Source: Thermoactinomyces vulgaris
GTDB taxonomy: Bacteria > Bacillota > Bacilli > Thermoactinomycetales > Thermoactinomycetaceae
Direction of reading: 5' to 3'
DNA: 64,000 nt
Assembly (NCBI RefSeq): GCF_003688725.1
Contig: NZ_REFP01000008.1
Coordinates: 124,001-188,000, forward strand
Part shown: positions 355 through 48,665 of the stretch, one piece after another
Numbering within the stretch: the stretch's first letter is position 1
Layout of the letters: each line of letters opens with the position of its first letter
Position numbers and translations under genes: made by a program
The notes under the pieces: generated by a model
What the model saw: only the letters and a program-made list of their open reading frames with translations
Database searches by the model: none
Told to the model about the DNA's origin: nothing

Positions 355-612
355 ACCCGTTTACTCCCTTCGGTTTATCAATCTGTGATGGGTCAGGTTT
401 TCATTCTATCAAAAATTCGACGCAGGTCAACATCGGTTTTTGACCTTGTCCTCTGTTTTTTGTCAGCTTTTTGCCGGGATGTTTCCTTTTTTTCTTTCAA
501 TCAGACAAACCCTTTGGTAATTTAGACAAAATTTTGGGTTTAATATATTGAATAACGGGTAATAATTTGTTGACTCTCGTCAAACCAAATGAAAAGAATT
601 GAGGTGCTTCGC

Positions 613-780
613 ATGATCGAACAGTTAAAAGCACTGGAAGAGCGTCTCTATTCCGTTCAACAAGAATACTTGCTGGCAAAAGAAAGACATGAATTTTTGG
701 CACAATATGATCTTTACGAAGAGTGGAAACAATTGAAAAAACAACAGAGCGAACTGAAGTCACAGTTAGGGCTCAATTAA
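613..780 (+). CDS. Small coiled-coil protein, 55 aa
   Basis: ATG at 613 is chosen over an upstream in-frame ATG at 589 because GAGGTG lies 6 bases before it. The product starts MIEQLKALEERLYSVQQEYL and is almost wholly an E/K/L/Q-rich helix, probably a short coiled coil. It is monocistronic: a strong terminator follows 12 bases after the stop. No function can be assigned. Confidence 0.6.
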   Translation: MIEQLKALEERLYSVQQEYLLAKERHEFLAQYDLYEEWKQLKKQQSELKSQLGLN

Positions 781-2721: not shown

Positions 2722-3468
2722 TCAGGACAGGGGTTCCAACATGCCAAAGCCTTGATTGGTATAACTCCCGATTCCCGCTTCCATTGCCACTTCCTGAATA
2801 CGGGGGGATGCATGGATTTGCAGAGGCATTTGGTATCCTTTGGTCTTTTTTCCTTTGATGTCGATCAAAGTGGCAGCTTGTTCAAGGCGAAAGTGTCCGG
2901 GATTCAGCAAACGGATGCGAATGGGAGCCGGGTTGGAGTCATCCACTCCCCATTTCAATTTGGCCCAACGATGGAGGGATGTTCGAATTTGGTCATAAAA
3001 ATCGCTTTCCAGCGGATGGCAAAACACCAACTTCCCTTCTTTGCGGACAGGAAACACCACTGGCCCCAAACAACGATAATTCATGACAGATTCGAAACGG
3101 GGCCGTTCCTCAAAATGAATCGAGTGCAAAGGAAAACGGTGTGAAAACAGTTGTAAATGGTTGAGTGCTTGGATGCCTTGGCAGAGTGCTTGCAACAAGG
3201 GAGGATGAATCGAATCCACTTTCCATGTCGCTTTTCCCTGTACCCGCATTTGTCCGGGGGATTTCCGGCAATGGTCAAAAGCGAGGGGGGAAAAAACGAA
3301 CGGCTTGTATTTTCGTCCTTCATAGGGGATGCCTTCCTGATGCAACCACTCAGCCAGATCCGGATCCGCCATCCTGACGGCGTGGTAAAAGTAACTCATC
3401 AGGGCATATGGATAATGGTAAGGAAGTGATGTTTCCGCCGGGATCTCAAACACAAATCGAATTCGCAT
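2722..3468 (-). CDS. cas6: CRISPR-associated endoribonuclease Cas6 (solitary)
   Basis: 248 residues. The N-terminus has the beta-rich MRIRFVFEIPAETSLPYHYP start of a RAMP-type ferredoxin fold, and the C-terminus has the glycine-rich motif GIGSYTNQGFGMLE that marks Cas6. Cas6 cleaves pre-crRNA within repeats in type I and III systems; a His near the N-terminus (HYPYALMSYFYHA) is a candidate catalytic residue. ATG at 3468 has AAAGGAG upstream. No other cas gene and no CRISPR array lie within this window, so it is isolated. It may act in trans on an array elsewhere or be a relic. Length is normal for the family. Confidence 0.85.
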   Translation of the reverse strand: MRIRFVFEIPAETSLPYHYPYALMSYFYHAVRMADPDLAEWLHQEGIPYEGRKYKPFVFSPLAFDHCRKSPGQMRVQGKATWKVDSIHPPLLQALCQGIQALNHLQLFSHRFPLHSIHFEERPRFESVMNYRCLGPVVFPVRKEGKLVFCHPLESDFYDQIRTSLHRWAKLKWGVDDSNPAPIRIRLLNPGHFRLEQAATLIDIKGKKTKGYQMPLQIHASPRIQEVAMEAGIGSYTNQGFGMLEPLS

Positions 3469-3651
3469 CAAATCGCTCCTTTAATAGTCTTCTTTCACTC
3501 TAGCAAAGGAGGAACAGGGCGAACAAGACAAGATGAAGTTGGGTCATAACCATCCGAAACCGGAGCCGGATGAAACGCTGCAAAAAGTGGTTAATCGGCT
3601 GAAAGAAAAGGATGATTGAAGTGAATATTCTAAAATGAAAGAAAAAACTAA

Positions 3652-10777: not shown

Positions 10778-11791
10778 ATGTGGATGCATATCTATGACCG
10801 GAGACTGTTGGAAGATCAGGAACATGGCAACGGGCATCCCGATGACGAAAAACGGCAAGAATTTCTTGCCCGGATTGAGCGCGGCGAAAAAATTGAAGCG
10901 GATGACTGGATGCCGGATGATTACCGCCGGCAGTTGATTAAATTGATCGCGATGCACGGGATCAGCGAAGTCATGGGGGCGTTGCCGGAGAAAGAATGGG
11001 TTCCCAAAGCACCAACGTTACGGCGCAAGCTGGCGATCATGGCCAAAGTTCAGGATGAGATGGGGCACGGACAATTGTTGCTGAGGGTGGCGGAAGATTT
11101 GCTGGCCCCGATTGGAAAAACCCGGGAAGACCTGATGAACGACTTATTTGTCGGAAAATTAAAATTTCATAATGTATTCCACATGGAGGCACCGACCTGG
11201 GCTGATGCCGGCGTGATCGGATGGTTGGTGGACGGGGCGGCGATCATCACGCAAACGATGTCGCTTAGCACCTCGTATGCGCCTTATGCCCGGGCGCTGC
11301 AACGGATTTGTGCCGAAGAAAAATTTCACATGCAACACGGCGAAAGCATCGTGTTGAGCCTGGCGGAAGGAACCCCCCGACAGCGCCGGATGTTGCAGGA
11401 AGCGGTCAACCGCTGGTGGCCGGCACTGCTCATGTTCTTCGGGCCGCCGGAAGACGGGGGGATTTCCAGCAACCAACGCCTGAACCTCCGGTATAAAATC
11501 CGTTCCAAAACCAATGAAGAGTTGAGGCAGGAGTTTTTCCACAAGTATGTTCCGCGGATTTTCCATCTCGGGTTGACCTTGCCGGATGAAACCATTCATT
11601 ACGACGAAAAAGAAGGACGTTGGCATTACCGGCAACCGGACTGGAATGAATTCAAACAGATCATCAAAGGAAACGGGCCCCGATCCAAAGAGCGGCTGAG
11701 ATTGAGAAAAGTTTCTTATGAAGAAGGAAAATGGGTGCGTGATGCCCTGCTCGCCAAGCAACGAAACGCGGTTCGGGGGGGAAGCGTATGA
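10778..11791 (+). CDS. paaA: Phenylacetyl-CoA 1,2-epoxidase catalytic subunit PaaA
   Basis: 337 residues of the bacterial multicomponent mono-oxygenase-like ferritin fold. Two di-iron ExxH motifs are visible: KVQDEMGHGQ near residue 90 and EEKFHMQHGES near residue 185. With PaaB and PaaC it inserts one oxygen atom into the ring of phenylacetyl-CoA. ATG at 10778 is selected 5 bases after AAAAAGG; ATG 10784 is also possible. First gene of the second paa operon; its stop overlaps paaB. Confidence 0.93.
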   Translation: MWMHIYDRRLLEDQEHGNGHPDDEKRQEFLARIERGEKIEADDWMPDDYRRQLIKLIAMHGISEVMGALPEKEWVPKAPTLRRKLAIMAKVQDEMGHGQLLLRVAEDLLAPIGKTREDLMNDLFVGKLKFHNVFHMEAPTWADAGVIGWLVDGAAIITQTMSLSTSYAPYARALQRICAEEKFHMQHGESIVLSLAEGTPRQRRMLQEAVNRWWPALLMFFGPPEDGGISSNQRLNLRYKIRSKTNEELRQEFFHKYVPRIFHLGLTLPDETIHYDEKEGRWHYRQPDWNEFKQIIKGNGPRSKERLRLRKVSYEEGKWVRDALLAKQRNAVRGGSV

Positions 11792-45029: not shown

Positions 45030-45312
45030 TCAACTTGAAATGGATATTTGCACGATGATGGGAAAAGTAACTGTCTGGCGAGCAACCAGAGAGGGGAATC
45101 CTGAGGCTGGAAGATTCCCTTTGTGACGGGGCAGTGAAAGACACCCGGAGTATCTAACCGAACGCCAATGTTGGCCAGTAGACTTAGACGTATCTCGGCG
45201 ATAACGAGTATGAAAGCGGGAAACTCAAAGTTTCCAACTAGGGTGGCACCACGGGAATCGTTAAACCAATCTCTCGTCCCTGACAATAAGTCAGTGGCGG
45301 GAGATTTTTTAA
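45030..45312 (+). ncRNA. T-box leader of hisS-aspS
   Basis: The 14-base T-box consensus AGGGTGGCACCACG is at 45240-45253, preceded by a long stem I region with AGAGAGG and GTGAAAGACACC. The candidate specifier region at 45140-45144 reads GACAC, which contains an Asp codon (GAC) and, shifted by two bases, a His codon (CAC). Uncharged tRNA binding would favour the antiterminator over the terminator at 45269-45310 and turn the operon on. Confidence 0.93.
45269..45312 (+). terminator. T-box regulated terminator before hisS
   Basis: TCTCTCGTCCCTGAC-AATAA-GTCAGTGGCGGGAGATTTTTT; its left arm overlaps the antiterminator region downstream of the T-box sequence. Confidence 0.88.
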
Positions 45313-48465: not shown

Positions 48466-48479
48466 AGAAGCAACCAAAC

Positions 48480-48665
48480 GAGTCCTGCGATGTACGTGTC
48501 CGCCGGGATGTTTTGAGCCAACACCCACGAAAAGGGAGTCTGCGTCATCCATGCTAGGGGAAGCCACGCAATGTGAGTGGACCTTCGAACATGGATGCAG
48601 GACACCCACCTGCGAGAGAGCAGGTTCAAAACAAACGGAGCACGGCATAACGGGACTCTTTTTTA
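48480..48665 (+). ncRNA. ssrS: 6S RNA (SsrS; BsrA type)
   Basis: A ~185-base structured region. The outer ends pair (GAGTCCTG near 48480 with CGGGACTC near 48651) and run into a T tract that ends the transcript. The inner part has GATGTTTTGAGCCAACACC, the characteristic Gram-positive 6S element, then long complementary arms (CATCCATG ... CATGGATG) and a large central bubble. The position directly after aspS matches B. subtilis bsrA. 6S RNA mimics an open promoter and binds SigA RNA polymerase. Confidence 0.85.

Follow-up and report, generated by a model that had tools for sequence, protein, structure and literature searches.

What does a cell do with a Cas6 protein whose gene stands apart from every array and every other cas gene around it? 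The question is raised by a cas6 gene of the PF01881 class at positions 2722..3468 (reverse strand) of the window, that is, the whole 64-kb stretch of DNA analyzed (G000:C2:124001-188000), which belongs to a 2.56-Mb draft genome of 15 contigs listed as 99.99% complete. The initial annotation described the gene as intact and solitary and proposed that it either serves arrays in trans or has been repurposed.

The solitary cas6 gene and its surroundings

The gene starts with an ATG at 3468, encodes 248 amino acids followed by a stop codon, and carries, on reading of the sequence, the ribosome-binding site AAAGGAG (3476..3482, reverse strand) 7 nt ahead of the ATG. The protein scored above the cut-offs of the Pfam models Cas_Cas6_C (57.6 bits; cut-off, 23) and Cas6_I-A (31.2 bits; cut-off, 27) and of the NCBIfam model cas_cas6 (65.1 bits; curated cut-off, 58.65), which places it in PF01881 / TIGR01877 above the curated cut-offs, and its top PADLOC model was Cas6b (E 1.7e-43). 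Its C-terminal glycine-rich loop reads GIGSYTNQGFGM, and the family consensus is GLGSYGSQGFGM. Numbered from the ATG, Y28, H43, and K55 align with Tyr31, His46, and Lys52 of the P. furiosus Cas6, which are given as the catalytic triad of that enzyme in a passage of PMC3652601. The active-site histidine and lysine were present in all 14 aligned Cas6 sequences and the tyrosine in 13 of the 14, the window Cas6 among them. At the 38 columns that are invariant across 13 relatives, the window Cas6 deviated once (Ile to Val), while in a leave-one-out comparison each of the other sequences deviated at 0 to 9 columns. An AlphaFold model built from 12 sequences (pLDDT, 82.9) had Cas6 proteins as its top PDB matches, the best being the catalytic P. 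furiosus Cas6 (3I4H; TM 0.78). However, the noncatalytic paralogue 3UFC was nearly as close (TM 0.77), and the fold alone therefore is no proof of catalysis. Judged from its sequence, the gene is thus confirmed as an intact cas6 with the described loop and a conserved active site; the decayed catalytic site that the initial annotation named as a counterargument was not found, Tyr, His, and Lys all being retained. Across the genome PF01881 matched only this protein, and no second Cas6 was found with PF01881 or PF10040 (0 matches for the latter), giving a copy count of one by these two models.

The solitary position of the gene was also borne out. A script found no array with at least three repeats in the 64-kb window, no site in the window resembled either of the repeat classes described below (36 nt and 30 nt) with up to 3 mismatches, and none of the 10 proteins flanking cas6 matched a Cas model, although one of them, an ATPase, matched two other defense models. 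A cas operon adjoining cas6 was rejected as a candidate: it was absent from the flanking proteins and from a 20-kb stretch (L015) reaching 10 kb past the near end of the window, in which cas6 alone resembled the cas genes of the fetched loci. No operon was thus found just outside the window on the near side within those 10 kb, and genome-wide searches with five Cas families gave no further match on the cas6 contig. At lower window coordinates lie a 63-aa gene (589..780, forward strand), a SAM riboswitch (921-1027; 94.8 bits), and, directly after it, the gene of a 460-aa membrane transporter (1043-2425), which appears NhaC-like. Elsewhere in the window we observed a T-box leader barely above its gathering score (45046-45284) and a 6S RNA (48479-48660).

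A second solitary cas6 was found in Seinonella peptonophila (L039:9885-10646; G013:C28) beside the same conserved genes, among them a homologue of the 63-aa gene (68% over 44 aa), but in the opposite orientation and with no transporter gene in between. Common descent of the two solitary genes was considered but not adopted: they have the same conserved neighbors, but the tree places them with different relatives, the Seinonella gene grouping with that of G004 (support, 97/96). Since the tree partners differ, a shared insertion site is equally likely.

Effector and arrays elsewhere in the genome

The initial annotation had pointed to the rest of the genome for arrays with a set repeat ending and for type I or III cas operons, and both small arrays ending in ATTGAAAC and a type III operon are present there, unlinked to cas6. 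The operon, at C1:249.7-256.0 kb, was marked by three RAMP matches; Cmr1 to Cmr6 were all recognized in it, as in type III-B, and Cmr2 has the GGDD motif. The 20-kb stretch around it (L036) contained neither repeat class and no cas6. Cas1 and Csc2 each had 0 matches in the genome, and with neither matched, a type I-D system was not assigned. As to type I-B, three stretches of this genome were clustered (L015, L036, and L037), and none of their genes resembled Cas8b or Cas3 from L043. Upstream of cmr1, a gene for a membrane and coiled-coil protein (L036:8783-9769) gave weak PADLOC matches to membrane-protein models and has homologues adjoining Cmr operons in six more fetched loci; it may be a Cmr signaling effector. 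Two genes near the operon (L036:6421-8399) matched the PADLOC candidate defense family PDC-M14B.

Two places, C1:736-746 kb and C5:181 kb, contain the arrays with ATTGAAAC at the repeat end; these arrays are built on a 36-nt repeat as small units, each with one to four spacers. Five units have a leader of about 190 bp that is at least 91% identical to the reference, a sixth keeps 123 bp of it, and most units finish with the last repeat followed by a terminator-like hairpin. Of the 19 sites listed for this class, 15 (nine distinct) were taken as good, with their last 11 columns invariant; three terminal repeats ending in ATTACAAA and one divergent site ending in ATTGAAAC were omitted. A one-spacer array of a 30-nt repeat lies at C5:165.3 kb, where a degenerate last repeat, also omitted from the count, is followed by a hairpin. 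Fifteen of the 16 good repeats in the genome therefore belong to the 36-nt class and one to the 30-nt class. The 30-nt pattern matched exactly at one site, which was the one examined, and with 3 mismatches at seven more, against one for the reversed-pattern control.

The C1 units sit in a prophage-like region, with broken units among them; among 10 proteins from this region, matches were to tail tape-measure families (two proteins) and to endolysins (one). Because the C1 and C5 contig ends have 285 identical bases in common, in opposite orientation, the two array clusters may be one region over an assembly break. Two mini-arrays (L013:1611-1866 and 11102-11357) have flanks that are 97% identical but different spacers, as if duplication of a cassette had preceded uptake of the present spacers. 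Of the 15 spacers, 11 were compared with phages by BLAST, as three array stretches and one single spacer; no target was found for them, the matches all being short and weak (lowest E value, 0.2). The exact repeat pattern had 0 occurrences in viral contigs. With no match to Cas1, expansion of the arrays by the established mechanism is not expected.

We also looked at the fold of the repeats ahead of the expected cut. For this we drew on the trimmed 3' parts of consensus repeats from multiple genomes rather than on folding of whole repeats: in 14 of the 16, a short stem stops precisely ahead of the final 8 nt (36-37-nt class, 9 of 10; 30-nt class, 5 of 6). Across the consensus repeats, a stem pair was altered on both sides yet preserved in some genomes. 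As whole repeats, two of the 36-nt class were equaled in folding by 73/200 and 21/200 shuffles, and the whole 30-nt repeat stretch, one base out of register, lacked the expected stem. A stem at this place in both classes makes a single enzyme for both plausible rather than demonstrated.

Cas6 and repeat classes among relatives

Seinonella, Laceyella, Thermoflavimicrobium, and Lihuaxuella belong to the Thermoactinomycetaceae, and all four were included in a comparison set of 23 family genomes. The window Cas6 had matches in 14 of the 23, its own genome counted, two of them being distant (24-25% identity); RAMPs were matched in 12, Cas1 in 15, and Csc2 in 8. Two classes of Cas6 were set by similarity clusters, and the two members of the other class that were scanned with profiles both matched PF10040. 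By strict pattern, the 14 fetched loci of relatives with a window-type Cas6 contained the 36-nt repeat in no case, the 30-nt repeat in 5, and neither in 9. The seven fetched loci with a PF10040-type Cas6 contained the 30-nt repeat in no case; four had the 36-nt repeat by pattern, and in the remaining three 36-37-nt arrays were found that did not match the pattern. Six of these seven loci carry Csc2 and Cas10d and are of type I-D (the L054 operon by profile scan, the others by cluster); the remaining one, L059, is a Cmr locus. No Cas6 was called in another I-D locus, L064, although 14 repeats of this kind lie there. Two window-type cas6 genes at contig edges were uncalled: G022:C30 has neither repeat, and G019:C79 is an exception with both kinds. 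Judged by this association in relatives, the genome studied here has one 30-nt array that matches the class of its Cas6, whereas its 36-nt arrays do not. In the 36-nt mini-arrays, the leader is similar to the one found at arrays of the I-D locus in G018, of the same genus (65% over 137 bases); the I-D locus of G017 gave a shorter match. The leader of the 30-nt array resembles leaders near Cmr in G007. As a separate observation, a distant Cas6 in G011 (L052:9639-10394; C27) adjoins arrays whose 30-nt repeat is different again, and clustering placed no further cas gene in that 20-kb stretch.

The trees separate the enzyme from the effector. In its tree, the window Cas6 has its sister in a Cmr locus of G021 (support, 100/99). 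For the Cmr2 of the window's own genome, the sister sequence is in G018 (100/100), followed by the one in G007 (100/99); cas6 and Cmr therefore have different histories. The fetched stretches of the Cmr loci of this genome, G018, and G007 contain no cas6, and the Cmr clade probably relied on a Cas6 from elsewhere before I-D was lost. Trees and gene content together suggest that the I-D system, which brings a matching Cas6 in relatives, has been lost from this genome. In G007, Cmr occurs with 30-nt arrays (L062; G007:C6:177001-195000), and the window Cas6 has no match; the I-D locus of that genome (L061) carries a Cas6 belonging to the other class.

Role of Cas6 and comparison with known systems

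Taken as a whole, the results are best explained by the sole Cas6 found processing the unlinked arrays and feeding the unlinked Cmr, a reading that we hold to be moderately probable. On this view the window Cas6, the sole Cas6 that the searches revealed in the genome, is a catalytic-type endoribonuclease that would cut transcripts of the unlinked small arrays within each repeat, 8 nt short of its 3' end. The guides would thereby carry a AUUGAAAC handle and would then pass to the type III-B (Cmr) complex. We infer that the gene is expressed, that cleavage and loading into Cmr take place, and that a single enzyme acts on the two repeat classes. Because arrays ending in ATTGAAAC and a Cmr operon exist unlinked in a genome with a single Cas6 by two Pfam models, service in trans is the best reading of the solitary gene, and crRNA maturation in trans for Cmr is its most likely role. 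The other half of the proposal in the initial annotation did not hold up: that Cas6 has been repurposed to process another cellular RNA, outside CRISPR, is highly improbable. Nothing in the genome beyond the isolation of cas6 speaks for it, although Sulfolobus Cas6-3 is described in a passage of PMC4041471 as also cutting a repeat-like noncoding RNA; the window has no repeat-like site, the genome offers CRISPR substrates and an effector, and the columns conserved in CRISPR-linked relatives are kept. It is also quite unlikely that Cas6 serves only the single 30-nt mini-array, with the 36-nt arrays handled by another nuclease or left unprocessed. That array does match the enzyme in class and has a leader like those of the 30-nt arrays near Cmr in G007, but one spacer and a degenerate last repeat are a thin reason for keeping cas6, and the two Pfam models revealed no second Cas6, though another nuclease could act.

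Somewhat unlikely, though a stronger competitor, is that I-D and III-B or I-B systems were lost and left behind cas6, the small arrays, and possibly Cmr as remnants that no longer cooperate, cas6 being intact through recent loss or a marginal job. The missing matches to Cas1 and Csc2, the broken units in a prophage-like region, and the mismatch between Cas6 class and repeat class are all consistent with this, as is G019, which retains a window-type Cas6 with no match to Cas1, Csc2, or RAMPs, so that cas6 can persist without Cmr. The terminal branch of the window Cas6 is also long (0.79, versus 0.31 in its sister). However, that of its own Cmr2 is longer to a similar degree (0.71 versus 0.30), which fits a faster lineage, although relaxed selection on both would produce the same; the Cmr operon is complete, and active-site and family-invariant columns are preserved as in relatives. 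Either Cas6 adopted repeats orphaned by the loss of I-D, or most of the arrays are relics. We suggest the first only tentatively and on balance lean away from it, as an exchange of enzymes in which the I-D system and its own Cas6 disappeared, the I-D-type repeats fell to a Cas6 from another class, and that enzyme feeds them to Cmr; G007 may be the mirror case. If such an exchange occurred, the family provides natural pairs with which to ask what enables a single Cas6 to cut repeats of a foreign class and which properties a guide needs for use by a type III complex. Otherwise, the picture is one of CRISPR disassembly, in which adaptation and type I genes are lost while Cas6, arrays, and Cmr linger apart. 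The mismatch of enzyme and repeat is the part worth testing at the bench.

Published work bears on whether one enzyme can span both classes. Passages of PMC4041471 describe Cas6 enzymes ranging from strict to relaxed specificity, with a specific Cas6-1 and a broad Cas6-3 in Sulfolobus and two Cas6 proteins of Methanosarcina mazei reported without differential specificity. In the part of PMC5576922 that deals with it, a Marinomonas III-B system failed to process I-F repeats without Cas6f, and caution is therefore needed in assuming cutting across classes. Among the matches listed from the open-licence literature, no paper described a solitary cas6 in this family.

The closest characterized protein, P. 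furiosus Cas6 (PDB 3I4H and 3PKM; PF01881 / TIGR01877), is like the window Cas6 in fold (TM 0.78) and in the aligned Tyr, His, and Lys but differs in sequence (about 20% identity in the fold alignment), and the window Cas6 is six residues longer between His and Lys. Among the 23 family genomes the nearest relative, at 55% identity, is the Cas6 of the Cmr locus of Thermoflavimicrobium dichotomicum (G021:C75), whose gene overlaps tail to tail with a Cmr5/6-cluster gene in a locus with Cas1 and Cas2 about 9 kb off and with cmr1 and cmr4 uncalled, whereas the window cas6 stands alone. Cmr operons without an adjoining cas6 or array, as found here, are described in passages of PMC12669027 and PMC5576922, and the crRNAs of such an operon must therefore come from elsewhere. 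A passage of PMC12669027 has most type III loci apparently relying on Cas6 in trans, and a passage of PMC5294841 puts the share of type III cas loci isolated from arrays at 28%. In the trans cases presented in the relevant parts of PMC12669027 and PMC5576922, Cas6 comes from another CRISPR-cas locus, whereas in the present genome cas6, effector, and arrays are all separate and Cas1 was not found. The unlinked array and Cas6 alongside Cmr in the same genome are nevertheless an arrangement of a known kind, mostly ordinary for this type of CRISPR system.
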